Virus record (IMG/VR): IMGVR_UViG_3300006565_000010
Span: 1-29,801 of that record
Length of the DNA: 29,801 nt
Reading direction: 5' to 3' (one strand)
DNA from: a virus
Under the pieces are notes generated by a model. It ran no database searches, was not told where the DNA came from, and was given only the letters and a program-made list of their open reading frames with translations. This document shows, one piece after another, positions 1,934 through 24,745 of the stretch. Within the stretch, counting starts at the first letter, position 1. Each line of letters opens with the position of its first letter. The translations under genes were made by a program, and so were the position numbers.

Positions 1934-2821
1934 ATGTCTAGACTAGCAGAGCTTAAGCAAGAAGTTGAATGGAGGAGGTGCGTTAAAGATGAATCATATT
2001 TTTTACAGAATTATTGGCACATTGCTCACCCTGCTCACGGGCGTATTCTTTTTGGGTTACGTCAGGCTCAGGAAGAAGCTATCGACCACTGGGCAGCAAA
2101 TAGATATTCGCTTACGTTAAAAGCGCGGCAGATTGGGTGGAGCACGCTTGTTGCGGCTCACCAGTTCTGGCTGGCGTTTTTTCATCCAGACCAGAACATT
2201 ATTGATCTCTCTCGAACTGAGAGGGAATCCGTACTGTTACTTCGGAAAAGTAAGTACGGATTTCAACACTTACCGAAATGGATGGTAGAACGTGGACCTA
2301 AGTCCCTGGTGGAACACCAACAGCGAATGGGTTTCGATAACGGATCGCAGATTACATCGATGCCGTCGGCGTCGGATCCTGCCCGTGGTGAATCGGCCAC
2401 ACTTATTGTCGTTGACGAATGGGCCTTTCTCCCCAACCCTGAAGAGGCATGGGCGAGTATTGAACCCGTGGCGGACGTGGGAGGGCGGATCATTGGCCTA
2501 AGTACGGCTAACGGTTCAGGAAATTTTTTCCACCAGTTGTGGGTTGGGGCTACGACTGCATCTAATAAGTTTGAGCCCATGTTTTATCCTTGGTCTGCGA
2601 CTGAGGATAGGGGGGATTCTTGGTATCAGGAGAAAGTTGAGTCAATGCTGCCTTGGCAGTTGGCTCAGGAATATCCAACTACGGCAGAAGAAGCATTTGT
2701 CAAATCTGGTAATCCTGTGTTTGACTTAGATATCCTAGATGCAATGCAACAGCATGTCATCCACGGGGAAATGGGATATATGCGACTTAATGGTCGTTCA
2801 GCAGAATTTAGGCCGTCGTGA
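1934..2821 (+). CDS. terL: Terminase large subunit, ATPase part (split gene)
   Basis: This 295-residue protein is the N-terminal motor half of a large terminase, which pumps DNA into the prohead using ATP. Seen: an adenine-binding/Walker A region with KARQIGWST (residues 63-71), Walker B LIVVDE (157-162) with the catalytic Glu, and the coupling motif STANG (190-194). It ends in the usual linker after the ATPase fold (GNPVFDLDIL...). The nuclease half is missing and is encoded by the next ORF, whose GTG overlaps this stop (GTGA). The ATG at 1934 is one base from the start of the divergent oxygenase gene; upstream GGTAAG is a weak ribosome-binding site. Alternatives are a frameshift mutation or sequence error joining what should be one gene. 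Confidence 0.9.
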   Translation: MSRLAELKQEVEWRRCVKDESYFLQNYWHIAHPAHGRILFGLRQAQEEAIDHWAANRYSLTLKARQIGWSTLVAAHQFWLAFFHPDQNIIDLSRTERESVLLLRKSKYGFQHLPKWMVERGPKSLVEHQQRMGFDNGSQITSMPSASDPARGESATLIVVDEWAFLPNPEEAWASIEPVADVGGRIIGLSTANGSGNFFHQLWVGATTASNKFEPMFYPWSATEDRGDSWYQEKVESMLPWQLAQEYPTTAEEAFVKSGNPVFDLDILDAMQQHVIHGEMGYMRLNGRSAEFRPS

Positions 2822-3489
2822 GTGTTGAAGTTTGGCAAAGACCAGACTCAATGTCTGCGTATGTGATGGGTGTCGATACTGCGGAAGGTCTTGGACATGG
2901 CGATTACTCTGTAATCCAGGTCTTGGATGTGGGTACTGGAGAACAAGCAGCTATTTGGCATGGACATATTTCTCCAGATCTTTTAGCTGAAGAAGTAATG
3001 GCTTTGGGTTTGTGGTATCGCAATGCTTTGTGCTGCGTAGAGTCTAATAACCACGGATTAACGACAATTACCGAGTTAAGACATTTGGGTTACCCTAATC
3101 TTTTTAGACGCAGGCAACTAAATAATGTTAATAACAGAATCAGTCAAGAGTATGGTTGGAAAACGACAAGGACTTCGAAACCTTTAATGATTGATGATCT
3201 CAGTTCCGCATTACGGAATGAGGAGATCATTATCCGAGATAAACATACTTTGGCAGAGTTGAGAACATTTGTCCGAAACGATAGGGGCTCAATGTCAGGT
3301 TCGCCTTATGATGATAGGGTTATGGCTCTTGCGTTAGCTAATCAGATGCGTAAATTTGCTTATGAACCTGAATATGCACCTGAAGTCAATGATTATTGGA
3401 CTGTGGATTGGTTTGCTAGACTTATCCCTGGTCACAACACGGAAGATCCGCTACAAATAGGCTTGAATACTATTCGTGGGACACATTAA
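2818..3489 (+). CDS. terL: Terminase large subunit, nuclease part (split gene)
   Basis: This 223-residue ORF is the RNase H-fold nuclease domain of the large terminase, which cuts concatemeric DNA at the start and end of packaging. The acidic metal ligands are all visible: Asp20 in GVDTAEGLGHGDYS, Glu75 in CVESNNHG, and Asp165/166 in SPYDDRVMALALA. It starts with GTG inside the TGA stop of the ATPase ORF, one frame back, which suits termination-reinitiation. The first residues (VEVWQRPD) look like the normal inter-domain linker, so ancestral fusion is clear. A single missing base near 2818 would also explain the split. I saw no canonical X-XXY-YYZ slippery site in the right phase. Confidence 0.88.
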   Translation: MSVEVWQRPDSMSAYVMGVDTAEGLGHGDYSVIQVLDVGTGEQAAIWHGHISPDLLAEEVMALGLWYRNALCCVESNNHGLTTITELRHLGYPNLFRRRQLNNVNNRISQEYGWKTTRTSKPLMIDDLSSALRNEEIIIRDKHTLAELRTFVRNDRGSMSGSPYDDRVMALALANQMRKFAYEPEYAPEVNDYWTVDWFARLIPGHNTEDPLQIGLNTIRGTH

Positions 3490-3815: not shown

Positions 3816-4085
3816 ATGGCCGTCTTACCAGACGGAGCAACCTTTGCAGAGTTTGCCGAATACGTTTTAGCGCGACGTGACGTTCCCTTGTCGGAACTGC
3901 GGGAACTTTACGAACGGAGGCTCCGTCTAAAGTCGATTACCGTATCGACGGGCGAAGGCTATCAATCAACGCTACCTCCTGATGAGCGAGGTCTGACGAA
4001 GCGCGAGCGAGAGGCTAAGGTACTGGCCGAGGCGAAAGCTTCGGGCCGAAATATCCAGAAATTGCCAGAGAAAGCTCAGTTCTAA
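3816..4085 (+). CDS. Small helical hypothetical protein upstream of portal (89 aa)
   Basis: This 89-residue protein has an N-terminal region (MAVLPDGATFAEFAEYVLAR) and Arg/Glu-rich helices (LSELRELYERRLRLK; LTKREREAKVLAEAK), then a basic tail. It looks like a small helical protein that could bind another phage protein. The TAA stop shares its last base with the portal ATG, so translation is coupled to the portal gene. I do not recognise the family; a role in portal or head assembly is suggested only by position. Confidence 0.7.
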   Translation: MAVLPDGATFAEFAEYVLARRDVPLSELRELYERRLRLKSITVSTGEGYQSTLPPDERGLTKREREAKVLAEAKASGRNIQKLPEKAQF

Positions 4086-5962
4086 TGCCCAAAAAATCTC
4101 GTCAGGAAATACTTTCTGATTACATTGAGAAAGTAGACAAATGCGAAAATTGGCGGGATCAAGAAAGCTTTGAGCAGACTTGGCGAAGGCTAATAGACCT
4201 CTACAGAGGGAAACATTGGCCTTCAACTACTTCCTCTAAACAGGATCTCATCGCTGTAAACTTGGCTTTTTCTACAGTCAATGTGATTGCTCCTTCTGTA
4301 GCTGTGAACTATCCGAAGATAGTTGTGCAAGCTACAGATCCTGCTGATTCTGCTCGGGCGGCTGTGGTTGAAGGTGTCGCCAACTATATGTGGCGGCACC
4401 ATGATTTCAGAACACCATTTCGCTCTGCTGTTAAAGATTTTCTTGTTATTGGGCATGGCTGGCTTAAAGTTGGCTGGAAGTTTGTAGAACAAGAACAAGG
4501 GATTTCAGACGAACAGCGCGAAGAAATGATCGGCTCAGCAATGCTAGAAGCCGATACATTTGCGATGCAAAATCCTGAGATGGCTGCAGATTTGCCAACG
4601 GATAACGACATTATCGCTAGCATTCCTGAATCGGCCATGACCATCGTAGAGGATCAACCATTTGTTGAAAGAGTTTCACCTTTCGATGTTTTTGTGGATC
4701 CAGCGGCAACGTGCATGGCAGATGCCAAATGGATAGCACAGCGAATTGTTAGGCCTGTAGAAGAAGCCCAGAAAGACAAGCGCTATAAGCCATCTGTTAG
4801 GAAACGGTTGTCAAGTTCGGTAATGGATACCGAATACCCAGAATACCATGATGGCAAAGGTGAATTCGTAGGCGATCAAGTTGTAATCTGGGAGTTTTAC
4901 GACATTTTGGAGAACACGGTTGGCATATACGCTGATGGTGCAGAAGAATTTCTTGTAGATCCTGTCCCTATGCCTTATGCATATGGGCAGCCTTTCGTAA
5001 TGATACGAAACTACGACGTCCCTGATCATTTCTATCCGATTGGAGATTTAGAGTCCATCGAATCCCTCCAACTGGAACTAGATAAAACTCGTAGCCAGTT
5101 GATGAACGATAGAAAGCGTTATGCGCGCAAATATCTTTATCACGAACGCTCATTCGGACCTGAAGGTCGCGAAGCCCTTGAATCTGATGAGGACGGTAGG
5201 CTCGTCCCCGTGGTGGACGAAAACAAACCTCTCCAAGAGGTTGTTGTACCGATGCCTCAAATCCCCCTAAGCCCTGAAATATATAACTATTCAAGCATTA
5301 TCGAAGAAGATATAAATACTGTTTCAGGCATTTCGGAATACGCCAGAGGCGCTATGCCCGAAATACGGAGAACAGCTACAGAAGCTAGCATTATCGCAGA
5401 TGCTCAGAATGCTAGAGCAGCAGATAAACTAGCAATAGTCGAGATATCTATTTCCGATGTAGCTCGCCACGTTATCCAGCTAATGCAACAGTTTATGACT
5501 GGAGAGCACATAGCTAGGATTACGGCCAGAGGTGGCGAAGATATATTCTTTGAATTTGACCGAGATATGATTGCTGGCGAATATGATTTTTCGGTTCAAG
5601 CTGGCTCTACGCAGCCGATGAACGATACGATACGAAAGCAACAAGCAGTTTCTTTGATGAATGCTGTTGCTCCGCTTGTCGGGGAAGTTATTGACCCGCA
5701 AGCGCTTGCTGTTCATGTGCTTGAACAAGGTTTCGGTATCAAAGATCCCGAAAAATTCCTTGTTCAGGCTCCTGGCCCAGAAGTTGCCGCAGAAGAAGGT
5801 CAAATTCCTTCTGAGGGCCCTGTGCCAGGTGGGATGCCGCCAGTACCGCCTGTATCCCCTGATATGGGGGCGGACGGGGCGTTTGCCCCCACTGGTGGTG
5901 TTCCACCCGAGTTGTTATTACAACTTCAAAATCAAATGGGAATGGAACTTCCATCTCTCTAG
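4085..5962 (+). CDS. Portal protein
   Basis: At 625 residues this fits a portal protein, the twelve-subunit ring at the head vertex through which DNA enters and leaves. Supporting features are the position after terminase and before scaffold and coat, the N-terminal part with SFEQTWRRLIDLYRGKHW, a beta-rich wing (VERVSPFDVFVDPAA), and a long helical region of crown/stem type (SLQLELDKTRSQLMNDRKR; SGISEYARGAMPE followed by TATEASIIADAQN), motifs common in podovirus/P22-SPP1-like portals. The last 50 residues are Pro/Gly-rich (GMPPVPPVSPDMGADG) and probably flexible. The ATG overlaps the preceding stop by one base. I recognise it from motif pattern and synteny. Confidence 0.85.
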   Translation: MPKKSRQEILSDYIEKVDKCENWRDQESFEQTWRRLIDLYRGKHWPSTTSSKQDLIAVNLAFSTVNVIAPSVAVNYPKIVVQATDPADSARAAVVEGVANYMWRHHDFRTPFRSAVKDFLVIGHGWLKVGWKFVEQEQGISDEQREEMIGSAMLEADTFAMQNPEMAADLPTDNDIIASIPESAMTIVEDQPFVERVSPFDVFVDPAATCMADAKWIAQRIVRPVEEAQKDKRYKPSVRKRLSSSVMDTEYPEYHDGKGEFVGDQVVIWEFYDILENTVGIYADGAEEFLVDPVPMPYAYGQPFVMIRNYDVPDHFYPIGDLESIESLQLELDKTRSQLMNDRKRYARKYLYHERSFGPEGREALESDEDGRLVPVVDENKPLQEVVVPMPQIPLSPEIYNYSSIIEEDINTVSGISEYARGAMPEIRRTATEASIIADAQNARAADKLAIVEISISDVARHVIQLMQQFMTGEHIARITARGGEDIFFEFDRDMIAGEYDFSVQAGSTQPMNDTIRKQQAVSLMNAVAPLVGEVIDPQALAVHVLEQGFGIKDPEKFLVQAPGPEVAAEEGQIPSEGPVPGGMPPVPPVSPDMGADGAFAPTGGVPPELLLQLQNQMGMELPSL

Positions 5963-17945: not shown

Positions 17946-20900
17946 ATGGCCGACAGAAAAGATATATTGGCCGCACTTAAATCTGCGCCTGGTTTAGATC
18001 TATCTCCTGATTCTGGGCATATAGATTTAAGTCCAGATACTCCTATGTTGGGAACGCATGATCCCACTAATCCGTGGGGTCTAGAATTAAATCTGCCAAC
18101 CCCTCGCCCTGTTGGGGGCGATGGGTTTTTGGGTCCCCTTGGTCAAGTTATTGACATTATAGATACGCCTAGAGCCGCAATTATGTCTACTGTCAAAGAG
18201 GTTACGGACCTTGTGCAGGGTGAAGGTTTTTCTGGGAAAGACTGGTGGAACCAAACTTCTGATAATTATATGTTTGGTGACCTTTTGCAAGATGAAGGCT
18301 GGGGGACTGGCACTGGCTGGGATATAGCTCTTGGTTTGCCTATCGACATTTTGTTGGATCCTGTTACTTATGCTTTGTCTCCTTTGAAGGCTGCAGGGAT
18401 GCTTGCCCGTGGCACGATTGGGGCCAAGGGTGTTGCTGTAAAGATGCAGAATGTAGCGAAGGCTTCAAGCAAAGCTGCTTATGCTGCAGATAAAGCTGGA
18501 GATGCGGCGGGTGCTGCGAAACATGCTGCTAAAGCGGATGAATATAATGCTGCTGCCGCTGCTGTTGTGAAAAATAATGCTATTCAAGCTGCTCCTAAAA
18601 AGATTCTTGAAGAGATGGGCTTTGATGTAGCAAAGGGTATGACGTTTAGTGTGCCTTTGACAGGTCGTGTTGGACGTAAAGTCGTTGAACGTCCTTTGGA
18701 TCGAGTGTTGGGTGGTTTGCTTTCTAAGGTTTTAGATCCGAGGCGGATCAAGCAGCTTCCTAAGTTTATGATTGATGATGCAGGTTTCGATCTTTGGAGC
18801 AATACTGCTAAGGCGCAGAAGAATCGTGACCTTGTTCAGAAAGCTATGTATCGTCTTAAGCGGGGCGAAAACATAGACAATCTGGCAGATGCGGCAACCA
18901 TGAAGAGTGTTCGCCAAGCCGCAAAGATGGCTAATCAAATGGCTGTTGATGTCCCTGGGGTTCTTATTCCTGGGACTTATGGTTTAGCTACTAAGGTTGC
19001 TTTGGGCCCTGGCAGGTTGTGGGGAACCGCTATGGTTCGTACTCCTTTCATGGACGATATGCACAAAGCTTTTGCTTCTGGTGAAAGCGGTGCTGTAAAA
19101 CGCATGATGCGTGGTACGGGTTTGCGAGCTAAAAATCTTACAGATGAGGACAGGCTTGTTGGTCTGGCTATGTGGGATAATTTGCAAACAGCTTTAACTG
19201 CTGAAAGAACTTTTGGTGTTCAGTTTGGTGAACGGGTTGCTGGTTTACGTCAAACGATAGACGAGATTAATGAAAGTCTTGTTGCTGCTGGTAGAGATGA
19301 GATCACCCCTGAGGATATGATGCGTTGGGGCCAGATCGACGATGCTGCCAATATGACTCCTGAGGCACGTCGATTAGCTGGGCTTGAAGAGGTATTTGGT
19401 CCAGGGCAAGGTGAAGTTCTTCCTTCTAAGTGGGAAGCGCAAATTAAGATTAAAGAATTTTGGGAAGGTGTCAGGAAAGATTTCAATGCGGCTTTAGCCC
19501 GAGAAGGCGAAGAGGGTTTTGGAAGCATCGATGAAATGCTTGACGATTTCTATGTTGCCCGTTTCATAGATTTAGAAACGGAAATAGGAAAAAAGATTGT
19601 AGACAAAGGACGCTGGACTCCGCCTGCAGATGCACGACATACTCAAGGTTTGCGAGGTAGTCCAACTAAGTTGCGTGAGTATAAGCCAGGAGAAACTTTC
19701 TTAGGGAAGCTTTTGGTTTCACCTGCTGAGCATCCGCAAGGTTTAAGCATTGTGGATCAGATGCGAGTTATTGGTAAAGATGTCGTGGGTCCAGAGTTCA
19801 GGTCCATGTACTCTGAACAATTTTGGGATGTGGCTGATCGTTACGGGAAGGTAATGAAGTCACGGGCTCGCCATCAACGCTGGATTAATGAGCTAGAAAA
19901 TTCTGCAATTCTTCAAAGAGGAACGATGCAGGCGGATGGCATTGCTTTTAAGTATGACACCGATGTCGTTAATCAATTAGAAGATCTAATTAAGGCCATC
20001 AATAAAGAACGCGGAAAATTTCAAAAAGATATTCTTAGTTCTAATGAGGATATAGAGAAGCTTCGAGAGACTGCTGTTGCTTCTTTAGATCAGGTAGATG
20101 AGGTTTCTCAAGCTGCTGGGGCTGTCCTTGTACGCTTGAATAACCAGTTGACTGATGTCCAAACTGTTCTTAACGAGTTTGAAGAAATAGCTGGTGTAGC
20201 TGGATTTAGCCCTAAAGCTAAACAGTATCTATTGGATCTTCTTGACGGCAAAATGGCGACAAGAAGCTCCAAGGAAGCTGCTTTAGAAGCTGAAATTCTT
20301 GAAGAGATTGTTGAGTTTATTGAGCCTTTAGCCCAGAAGCTTGCAAAGTTGCGCCAAGCGCAGAATCAGTTGCAAGAAACTATTGGGATGGCCCACAGGG
20401 AAGGCGTCCAAGTTGGTGCTACTCCTCGGAATGTTGCTTGGGATGACATGCTTGAAGTCCCAACTAAAGACCGTGGATATGCTACTGATCTTCAGAATTT
20501 CTTAACAAAGCTAGACGCTGAGATTACAGACTTAGAAAAGTTCATGCGTTATGTCACTGGGAATTTACATACCAGTGCTTTGGCCGATGAGACTGTCGAA
20601 ATGATGGAAACATTAGTCAAGTTAAGTGATGATATTAAGGATCCAAAATTTCCATTAGTTATTAGCGGAGAAACTGCAGCAGAAGGGGTACTTCGTCCTA
20701 AGAGGAGACTTTCCCCTGAGCGTATGCGTCAGCTTCGTCAGCCTCGTGGGACTGCGGAACCGCAGTTAGTTCAACGTCGCGAGGGAGGAAAATTTGCTGA
20801 AGGAAAAGAGATTAAATCTCGTGCTGCTTACAATTATGAAGAAACTATCGAGTCTCCTAATTTTCAAAAAATAACTATTGAGCAATTCACTGAAATGGAT

Positions 20901-23594
20901 TTGCCTTCTACGATTGTTGTTGAGCAGGTTTACACTTCGACGGGAGAAAAGATTGTTTGGCAGGTTGAGCATTCTGGTAGAACATTTGATTCTCGTACAG
21001 CGGCGATGGATCATGTTTATGAGGAACTTGGATATTTCAAAGTTCCTCGTGTCTTTCGGAATGAGAAGGGCCAGATTGTAAGCCAGACTTCGAAAGAGAA
21101 TGGTCATTGGGTTCGTAAGATTTCTGTTCCGAAAGAGTCACCTATCCGCAAAACGAAGAAGGGCAATACTTGGGCTGATCTTTTTGAGCGGATGGGGAAT
21201 TTATCTAATGAGTTAAATGCTGAACAGATTTTGGTAACTAATCAGTTAGATGATGTTGTTGAGCGTGTAGCCAATTTAAGGAATAGTCTTGAAGCTTCTC
21301 CAGTGATGATGGGGCTTAATGAAGATTTGGCTCGCTTGGATGCTTATATCAATACCACTCAGGGAACTCGGCAATGGTTTATTCAATTAGCTAACCGTGG
21401 TCGTCCCAATAAATACGGTTGGTCGGGTACAGGTCGGCCAAAGGGTGCTGAAGGTAAGAGCGATTATTGGTTGGGGAAACAGCGAGGCATGTCTGATGAA
21501 GATATTGCCCATAGGTACCAAACTAGGGCTCAACCTAGAACTAAAGGTGGTAAACCAGAACCTGCCCGCAAGGGCGCTAAGGTTGCGCCAGGTGAGACTG
21601 CTGCTGCTCGTTGGGTGAGTGGAGTTGTTGAAGGCGATTTGAATGATGCCCATAGACAATTCGATATAGATCGACTTCGGTATTACGCCGATGAAGGGAT
21701 AGAACCTCCTGATCTTTATGTTGGTGCGAGACAAGAGCATGAAGATCTTCTAAAGGTCAAGAATCAAATTAATGAGCAAATTGCCATTCAGCAGAATCTT
21801 ATTGATGAGGCTGTCCAGAAAGCTAAAGTTGCCGAACAAGCTGCTTATCAAGCTCGGGCTAACCAAGCTGACGATATCCAGAATTATGCTTTGCATAAAG
21901 CTGAAGCAGATGCTCGCAAACTTCAGCTTGAAGCTGAGGTTGCTAGCTTAAGAGAATCTGGTTCTATTGTAGATTTCTTTAGGTCTGCCCCTACTCCAGA
22001 TGAAGCAATTCTGAGGGTGCTTGCTGATCGAGGGCTCTACAGCAAAGCTTTAGATGCTTATGGCGAAGCTCAGTCTAATTTCTTGCTTTCTTATCGGGGG
22101 ATGCAACAAACTTTAACTCCTGGTGGTCAGTCTTACGTTGCTGGCGGTTTAAGCGAAACTGGTTTTCAAATGTTTGAAGAAGCTCTCATGGCTGGGGCTA
22201 AGCTTCACGACTTTGACGAAGTTGGAAAGTTCCTTAAGGGATATAGGCAACTTGCGAACTGGTGGAAATCACAAGCCGTGACCACGCCAGGTTTCATTAT
22301 CCGCAACCTTATGGGCGGTATGTGGATTAACTCGATGGTCGCTGGAGTTGAGTTTGGGACCCACAGCAAAGTAATAGGCATGACTAAAGCTGCGGCTTCA
22401 GCAGGCAACGGGGATGTTCTTGCAGGTATGCGTCAGCTAGCTGCTTCTGACGGTCCTGTCCGTTTAGAAGGTATTTCTGGACTGGGTGGTGCTCGCAAAG
22501 CAGGCGCAGAAGATTTTAGAGATTTGCTAGAACTAATGGAAAGCGGTTCTGTCGGATCTGGTCAATCATGGTCTGAAATTATCACCAATGTTGATCAGGC
22601 CGCTGTGTTGCGACCGTACCAAAGAAGGCAAGGCAAATTGGGTGGCGCCCAAAGCGGTTTGGGGGCAGGCTGGACAGAAGGCACATGGAAGCCTTGGTCT
22701 GCTGATTTCAAAATGTCTAGAGCTATCCGTTCACAGAACGAGCGTGCAGAGTTTGTTTTGCGTGCCTCTGTAGGTATGGATACTCTTGCCAAAGGTGGAG
22801 ATGTTGCTTCCGCTTACAGAAATATCACCAAGTATCATTTTGATTACGGAGATATCACAAATGTGGAGCGGCGAATCAAAGATGTGATTCCTTTCTACAC
22901 TTGGCAAAAAAATGTTATTCCTGTGTTGTTGGAGTCAATGGGACGTAAACCTCAGTCTTGGGGACGTTTGCTTCAAGTCAAGAAAGAACTTGAGCTTCAT
23001 TCTCCTCAGCAGGGATTAGTTCCTGATTATTTTGGTGAGAATATGGGAATCAGGTTGCCATTTAAGATTCCTGGGATCAAGGGCGGGCGTGTGTACGCTC
23101 TTCCAGATCTTCCTTTCAGGGATTTCCAAAGGTATTTGAAAGAACCAACTTCTCCTATTCGGGGACCTTTGGAGTCTGCATTTCCTTGGGTCAAGTTACC
23201 TGCCGAAATGTGGGCGACTAAGCAGACTTTCGCTGATATTCCTTTCATGGAAAGGTATCAGCAAGTTCCTTCTTGGGGTAAAATTCCTGGTCTAATGCCA
23301 ATATTAGGTGGTTTGGGTAAAGCCAAGAAAGCTAAAGACGGTACGTGGGTTATGAAAGATAACGATATTTATGCTGTTGATCAGTTCGTTCCTTTCTTTG
23401 GTCGTATGCGTAGAATGTTGCCTAATGAAGAGGCTAAGCAGCGTCGCCTTATGACAACTTGGGTGTCTACTATTTTCGGTGGCGGTTTTAGGGTTAATGA
23501 TCCGTTTGAAAAGCGTTCGCAATTTATTCGGGATCAGAAGAAATTTGCGAACGATATGCGTGACATCCTAGATATTGAAACAAGGCGAGTCTGA
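17946..23594 (+). CDS. Giant internal virion/ejection protein 3 (1882 aa)
   Basis: By far the largest gene in the window. Order of visible parts: a flexible N-terminus (1-100); a small amphipathic region (LPIDILLDPVTYALSPLKAA); an Ala-rich helical stretch (about 165-215); a long helical body; coiled coils at about 673-750 (VVNQLEDLIKAINKERGKFQ) and 774-814; a beta/loop insert (about 975-1075) followed by KENGHWVRKISVPK; another coiled coil (1264-1340, INEQIAIQQNLIDEAVQKAK); and a C-terminal domain that includes VTTPGFIIRNLMGGMWINSM (about 1441-1460). Near 1630-1665 lies HFDYGDITNVERRIKDVIPF and YTWQKN, a motif I recognise from large phage virion proteins. It probably enters the host with the DNA. 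I saw no transglycosylase or RNA polymerase motif. The next gene starts two bases after its stop. Confidence 0.7.
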   Translation: MADRKDILAALKSAPGLDLSPDSGHIDLSPDTPMLGTHDPTNPWGLELNLPTPRPVGGDGFLGPLGQVIDIIDTPRAAIMSTVKEVTDLVQGEGFSGKDWWNQTSDNYMFGDLLQDEGWGTGTGWDIALGLPIDILLDPVTYALSPLKAAGMLARGTIGAKGVAVKMQNVAKASSKAAYAADKAGDAAGAAKHAAKADEYNAAAAAVVKNNAIQAAPKKILEEMGFDVAKGMTFSVPLTGRVGRKVVERPLDRVLGGLLSKVLDPRRIKQLPKFMIDDAGFDLWSNTAKAQKNRDLVQKAMYRLKRGENIDNLADAATMKSVRQAAKMANQMAVDVPGVLIPGTYGLATKVALGPGRLWGTAMVRTPFMDDMHKAFASGESGAVKRMMRGTGLRAKNLTDEDRLVGLAMWDNLQTALTAERTFGVQFGERVAGLRQTIDEINESLVAAGRDEITPEDMMRWGQIDDAANMTPEARRLAGLEEVFGPGQGEVLPSKWEAQIKIKEFWEGVRKDFNAALAREGEEGFGSIDEMLDDFYVARFIDLETEIGKKIVDKGRWTPPADARHTQGLRGSPTKLREYKPGETFLGKLLVSPAEHPQGLSIVDQMRVIGKDVVGPEFRSMYSEQFWDVADRYGKVMKSRARHQRWINELENSAILQRGTMQADGIAFKYDTDVVNQLEDLIKAINKERGKFQKDILSSNEDIEKLRETAVASLDQVDEVSQAAGAVLVRLNNQLTDVQTVLNEFEEIAGVAGFSPKAKQYLLDLLDGKMATRSSKEAALEAEILEEIVEFIEPLAQKLAKLRQAQNQLQETIGMAHREGVQVGATPRNVAWDDMLEVPTKDRGYATDLQNFLTKLDAEITDLEKFMRYVTGNLHTSALADETVEMMETLVKLSDDIKDPKFPLVISGETAAEGVLRPKRRLSPERMRQLRQPRGTAEPQLVQRREGGKFAEGKEIKSRAAYNYEETIESPNFQKITIEQFTEMDLPSTIVVEQVYTSTGEKIVWQVEHSGRTFDSRTAAMDHVYEELGYFKVPRVFRNEKGQIVSQTSKENGHWVRKISVPKESPIRKTKKGNTWADLFERMGNLSNELNAEQILVTNQLDDVVERVANLRNSLEASPVMMGLNEDLARLDAYINTTQGTRQWFIQLANRGRPNKYGWSGTGRPKGAEGKSDYWLGKQRGMSDEDIAHRYQTRAQPRTKGGKPEPARKGAKVAPGETAAARWVSGVVEGDLNDAHRQFDIDRLRYYADEGIEPPDLYVGARQEHEDLLKVKNQINEQIAIQQNLIDEAVQKAKVAEQAAYQARANQADDIQNYALHKAEADARKLQLEAEVASLRESGSIVDFFRSAPTPDEAILRVLADRGLYSKALDAYGEAQSNFLLSYRGMQQTLTPGGQSYVAGGLSETGFQMFEEALMAGAKLHDFDEVGKFLKGYRQLANWWKSQAVTTPGFIIRNLMGGMWINSMVAGVEFGTHSKVIGMTKAAASAGNGDVLAGMRQLAASDGPVRLEGISGLGGARKAGAEDFRDLLELMESGSVGSGQSWSEIITNVDQAAVLRPYQRRQGKLGGAQSGLGAGWTEGTWKPWSADFKMSRAIRSQNERAEFVLRASVGMDTLAKGGDVASAYRNITKYHFDYGDITNVERRIKDVIPFYTWQKNVIPVLLESMGRKPQSWGRLLQVKKELELHSPQQGLVPDYFGENMGIRLPFKIPGIKGGRVYALPDLPFRDFQRYLKEPTSPIRGPLESAFPWVKLPAEMWATKQTFADIPFMERYQQVPSWGKIPGLMPILGGLGKAKKAKDGTWVMKDNDIYAVDQFVPFFGRMRRMLPNEEAKQRRLMTTWVSTIFGGGFRVNDPFEKRSQFIRDQKKFANDMRDILDIETRRV

Positions 23595-24550: not shown

Positions 24551-24745
24551 ATGACTGAAGGTTCAGCCAAGAAACCATTTGACTGGGGCGATTGGATTGA
24601 GCGTTCTGTTTGGACTGCGGTCGAAGCAGGGCTCGCTATTCTTGTTGTCACAGACGTATCAAGCTTCAAAGCTGCTGCATCTGCAGCGGCTGCGGCTGGC
24701 ATAGCGGCTCTGAAGTCGCTAGCCAAGCAACGTCTGGCTCGGTGA
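24551..24745 (+). CDS. Holin (phage r1t-type, 64 aa)
   Basis: This small membrane protein should make pores in the cell membrane so that the endolysin reaches the wall. The N-terminus has WGDWIERSVWTAVEAG, then one hydrophobic segment (VEAGLAILVVTD, about 24-35), a short polar turn, and an Ala-rich second segment (SFKAAASAAAAAGIAALKSL, about 38-57) with a basic end (AKQRLAR). This order, W-x-x-x-x-x-R-x-V-x-T-x at the front and an Ala-rich second helix ending in Lys/Arg, fits the r1t holin family of Gram-positive and actinobacterial phages. It follows the endolysin closely. The stop overlaps the next GTG (GTGA). Confidence 0.75.
   Translation: MTEGSAKKPFDWGDWIERSVWTAVEAGLAILVVTDVSSFKAAASAAAAAGIAALKSLAKQRLAR

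Follow-up and report, generated by a model that had tools for sequence, protein, structure and literature searches.

The large terminase (TerL), the motor that drives DNA into the capsid, counts as a hallmark protein of tailed viruses and is normally a single chain, but it is encoded by two genes in the virus DNA analysed here and in its relatives. We consider it very probable that this is a fixed fission inherited throughout a clade, with a pair of coupled cistrons, one for a chain made up of ATPase and hinge and the other for a nuclease chain, whose products assemble non-covalently. The window, by which we mean the whole stretch of 29,801 nucleotides that was analysed, is IMG/VR virus record IMGVR_UViG_3300006565_000010. 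A sequence-only reading of this DNA had described an ATPase ORF and a nuclease ORF that share GTGA, the second one frame back (-1), and both ORFs were found as described. The features at the junction are as follows.

1934-2821, + strand: TerL-N, the ATPase chain, 295 aa, ATG start (Pfam, PHROG and T4 gp17 matches)
2774-2815, + strand: hinge/linker beta-hairpin, retained by the ATPase chain as modelled (strands 281-286 and 289-294)
2810-2812, + strand: weak Shine-Dalgarno-like AGG, 5 nt 5' of the nuclease GTG (sequence)
2818-2821, + strand: fission point, the GTGA stop/start overlap, at about T4 gp17 residue 381/382 (sequence and fold alignment)
2818-3489, + strand: TerL-C, the nuclease chain with an RNase H fold, 223 aa, GTG start (Pfam, PHROG and fold)

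An alternative TTG start for TerL-N is open 12 nt upstream of the ATG. TerL-N matches Pfam Terminase_6N (4.7e-08) and PHROG TerL families, and TerL-C matches Pfam Terminase_6C (7.2e-05) and terminase PHROGs. By profile and fold searches, T4 gp17 was the best or near-best solved relative for both chains. Residues 1-263 of TerL-N were aligned on T4 gp17 100-360 with a Z of 16 in the fold comparison, and TerL-C was superimposed on T4 gp17 (3cpe) over 172 residues at 2.1 A (Z 22.5). Residue 1 of TerL-C falls at T4 residue 382, which agrees with the earlier proposal that the break lies at the inter-domain linker. The motif set that had been claimed for the ATPase ORF stands in two of its parts, the Walker B with the catalytic Glu (IVVDEW) and the coupling motif (LSTANG), and has to be corrected in the third, since the Walker A is a deviant P-loop, KARQIGWST (window 2117-2146), in which Trp takes the place of the Walker A Lys of T4 gp17. 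Single-chain relatives have this deviant type in common (KARQIGFS or similar). The full RNase H acidic set attributed to 2818-3489 is indeed present: D20, E75, D165 and D166 are invariant and align with the acidic residues D401/E458/D542 of T4 gp17. Both the ATPase motifs and the nuclease catalytic residues are conserved in the split clade and in the single-chain relatives.

Both folds, the nuclease catalytic residues and the domain order are therefore shared with T4 gp17, which differs in being one chain with a covalent hinge, where here there are two genes, and in the position of the P-loop Lys. As expected of a large terminase, the pair has the ATPase motifs (with the P-loop deviant), an RNase H nuclease with its acidic triad, and TerS and portal genes nearby; it departs from the usual state, which is not part of the homology, of both domains in one polypeptide, since each of the clade members looked at has two ORFs. 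By these matches the window pair is a T4-gp17-like TerL, predicted to carry out ATP-driven DNA packaging and DNA cleavage. Two short PHROG models, phrog_24361 and phrog_7579, each match one half, and may stand for other split or truncated TerLs elsewhere.

On the window are tailed-phage genes for packaging and for the virion, including scaffold-like, major capsid, tail and lysis genes, and TerL-N and TerL-C sit between the TerS-like and portal genes. The surrounding features are listed here.

70-498, + strand: TerS-like gene (upstream context)
1324-1932, - strand: 2OG-Fe(II) oxygenase gene, between TerS and TerL-N
4085-5962, + strand: portal gene, SU10/P22-like (downstream context)
17946-23594, + strand: largest ORF of the window, 1882 aa
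26281-27183, - strand: archaeo-eukaryotic primase domain of TOTE conflict systems, adjoining a DnaB-like helicase gene (Pfam AEP-TOTE, 1.6e-15)

An opposite-strand ORF similar to that of the oxygenase lies directly upstream of TerL-N in one relative (L136).

IMG/VR was searched for relatives with each half as query and also with an alignment, genome contigs were added, and a script located the ATPase stop and nuclease start in each locus with both halves. All 201 loci holding both halves, the window included, were split at the same point (best 80 loci per scan). A relative with a single continuous TerL frame across the junction, the check that had been proposed, was not met among these 201. 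They represent 93 distinct protein pairs, and this is the fair count because several loci derive from the same contig. Identity over the full halves goes down to about 79% for the ATPase and about 69% for the nuclease among split loci. One locus is identical to the window, perhaps from the same assembly, and was left out as independent support; another (L081, 99%, from a different metagenome) is still split, with one additional in-frame codon immediately 5' of the stop. The clade is one of uncultured tailed viruses, probably mostly marine, the habitat being guessed from the relatives found. Split TerLs were also seen on contigs binned to an Acidimicrobiaceae TMED189 MAG (L238) and a Euryarchaeota MAG (L239). 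These host leads disagree, and the contigs are possibly misbinned virus contigs.

The junctions themselves are of several types. In the 93 pairs, the two halves meet at NTGA (ATGA or GTGA) in 83, at TAATG in 3, at ATGCTAA in 1 and at TAG-ATG in 1, the last being L063, with TAG and then immediately an in-frame ATG. The other five have insertions between the halves, of 830-845 nt in three pairs and 131 nt in two. The longer inserts (L073:1218-2066, L068 at about 4873-5720, and L136:2858-3691) hold a PAPS-reductase-like (PP-loop) ORF matching phrog_424 at 1e-45 to 1e-55, and in this group the ORF has an ATGA or GTGA overlap with both neighbours. Two versions of it were found, only 51% identical and on separate tree branches, and therefore the comparison suggests that such genes entered the TerL junction repeatedly. 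The shorter insert (L225:5885-6019, and the same stretch of L228) is an ORF of 44 aa that contains two CxxC pairs and has GTGA at each end. Because the junctions vary in this way and whole genes intervene, separate translation of the halves is the only reading compatible with all junction types.

To place the cut, the linker was compared with that of 88 single-chain relatives, some from the phage collection and others from searches in which the queries were the TerL of the Manatee Spring podovirus ct52p938 (MW202803; L148) and a mixed alignment (best 80 loci per scan). This TerL and the IMG/VR loci L242-L321 are the nearest single-chain relatives among the best 80 loci per scan, with about 46-57% identity in the ATPase half and 36-53% in the nuclease half, and they share the motifs and the linker strands. 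Unlike the window, they have one continuous ORF. Their linker reads NLEFREDGGELSIW, as against SVEFRS-stop / MSLEIW in the split form; close single-chain relatives have GYLHRISPKNLEFREDGGELSIWQFP (L276) and GYLHRLGPKNLEFRRDGGELAVWEFP (L249), and the split member L077 has GYLHKVSARSVEFRS-stop / MSLEIWVRP. The stop/start stands in place of the DGG turn between the two linker strands, and nothing else is lost. The E-F pair of the linker hairpin is invariant across the clade alignment. In the AlphaFold models TerL-N ends in a hairpin (strands 281-286 and 289-294), the mean pLDDT of this model being only 71, and TerL-C begins with a strand at residues 2-5 (mean pLDDT 80). Because TerL-C starts at T4 382 and TerL-N keeps its C-terminal hairpin, the hinge, as modelled, remains on the ATPase chain.

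Quick maximum-likelihood trees of representatives agree whether or not the most distant outgroups are included. The split TerLs form one side of a single branch and the single-chain TerLs the other, with an SH-aLRT of 99, or 100 once the most distant outgroups are removed. Because the split sequences occupy one side of one branch, one fission is enough, and the simplest reading of the trees is a single ancient event on the clade's stem.

The sequence-only reading had favoured a real split while allowing that a one-base error near 2818 might have broken an ordinary single-chain TerL, and the proximity of the frames, one base apart, together with the general rule of a single chain, spoke for such an error. 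The first of these views has held up and the second has not: the split is found in 201 loci from many metagenomes, and in several of them the junction is occupied by an in-frame stop or a complete gene, which lies beyond any one-base error. Assembly error is thus excluded and the split is genuine, so that we give the indel a negligible probability. Programmed -1 frameshifting, yielding some full-length fused TerL, would fit the -1 position of the nuclease frame in most members. However, in the window the nuclease frame is closed up to a TAG at 2809-2811 and open from 2812, and the two frames are open together only over the 10 nt of 2812-2821 (GCCGTCGTGA), where no slippery heptamer occurs. The earlier statement that no such heptamer lies in phase is correct for this overlap; it is not for the ATPase ORF, which has four in-phase XXXYYYZ heptamers (1999, 2329, 2521 and 2524), all at least about 280 bases 5' of the overlap and unusable because the nuclease frame is not open before 2812. 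The relative frame is also not conserved, the nuclease of L063 being in frame behind the TAG and those of L136, L068, L073 and L225 being separated by a whole gene, and we regard frameshifting as very improbable. Rejoining of the halves by a split intein or an intron has precedents in phages whose TerL coding sequence is interrupted, namely Mic1 (PMC7156551) and Campylobacter phage IBB_35 (PMC3322345). There, splicing is expected to remove the inteins or intron and leave a single chain, while no splicing element was seen here. The halves share 4 nt and end one to three residues from the conserved linker strands, and therefore there is no room for an intein or intron; the inserts found are ordinary ORFs, and Rfam gave zero matches in the window. 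Such rejoining seems scarcely credible to us.

Packaging ATPases of the phi29 type need no packaging nuclease and function without one, a point in favour of TerL-C being a free enzyme for the initiation and headful cuts, with TerL-N alone translocating the DNA. T4 mutants with a dead nuclease also still package linear DNA (PMC3012670). Against this, the translocation groove is assigned to the nuclease domain in T4 (PMC3012670), and TerL-C retains a linker strand and, in every locus, adjoins TerL-N or is one gene away. We find a free nuclease unlikely. As to how the fission arose, a homing endonuclease gene might have been inserted between the domains and later lost, as proposed by analogy with phage nrdA, split by mobE; this origin would be compatible with the two-cistron reading. 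Split essential phage genes are on record for nrdA and gene 43 (PMC2988022), and nrdA resembles the present case as an essential phage enzyme made as two chains that need reassembly (PMC2988022). It is a different enzyme, however, and there the homing endonuclease gene causes the split, where here none is seen. Some members do have other genes precisely at this point, but these are PAPS-reductase-like (three pairs) or CxxC ORFs (two pairs), in derived branches. No homing endonuclease ORF was found at the junction in any locus examined, nor any insert outside the five pairs, and this origin appears doubtful, if a little less so than the free nuclease.

Both halves are under strong purifying selection. 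Median dN/dS was 0.087 for the ATPase (range 0.05-0.17) and 0.074 for the nuclease (0.03-0.19), as computed from the 14 unsaturated pairs only, synonymous sites being saturated in the other pairs. Of 103 sequences, 92 use GAG for the Glu that precedes the linker Phe, as against 1265 of 2526 (about 50%) elsewhere in the gene, these sequences being related to each other. This codon places GGAG 8-11 nt before the nuclease start in many members; the window itself has only AGG. The bias is suggestive only of a Shine-Dalgarno signal, as it counts related sequences. A 4-nt Shine-Dalgarno match precedes the nuclease start in 69 of the 103, compared with 29% of control positions, and longer matches were no commoner there than at control positions inside the gene. 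The general length of the Shine-Dalgarno match was not clearly above that of the gene interior and was set aside as evidence, the codon bias being used instead.

Returning to the two coupled cistrons, we propose that a single mRNA would bear both overlapping genes, and that ribosomes ending the ATPase chain would reinitiate at the overlapping GTG or ATG (termination-reinitiation), often helped by a Shine-Dalgarno-like sequence within the last ATPase codons, so that the nuclease would be made as a separate chain. The chains would then dock non-covalently, most simply by re-pairing of the linker strands, together with the ATPase-nuclease interface known from T4, and the assembled two-chain motor would package DNA as in T4. 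We infer the reinitiation, the roughly equal amounts of the chains, the two-chain complex and DNA translocation by it.

That a two-chain motor works is not self-evident, because when T4 gp17 was artificially split at the linker the ATPase and nuclease activities were kept and translocation was abolished (PMC3012670, PMC9958956; reviews). The T4 motor stops when split, and therefore viruses with a split TerL must have found a way round. Perhaps the position of the natural cut, at the nuclease end of the linker, explains the difference from the T4 split. We think it likely, with less confidence than the fission itself, that the halves are separate and possibly exchangeable subunits, that contrary to T4 translocation can do without a covalent hinge, and that the junction takes up extra genes.

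The interest of the clade lies in this tension with the T4 result, since the T4 packaging model centres on the transmission of force through the TerL hinge and a two-protein TerL would be a natural counter-example. It would also provide a motor that nature has made in two parts, open to direct tests of subunit ratio, exchange and coupling. Our literature search, with most subscription journals outside its scope, found no description of a TerL divided between two genes in this manner. For annotation, both ORFs are to be treated as genuine genes, and such viruses may be lost or wrongly scored where TerL trees or length filters are used.

The second GTGA overlap that had been pointed out in this DNA, at 24742, is real as well; at 24742-24745 it joins a short hydrophobic ORF to an acidic ORF of 110 aa.
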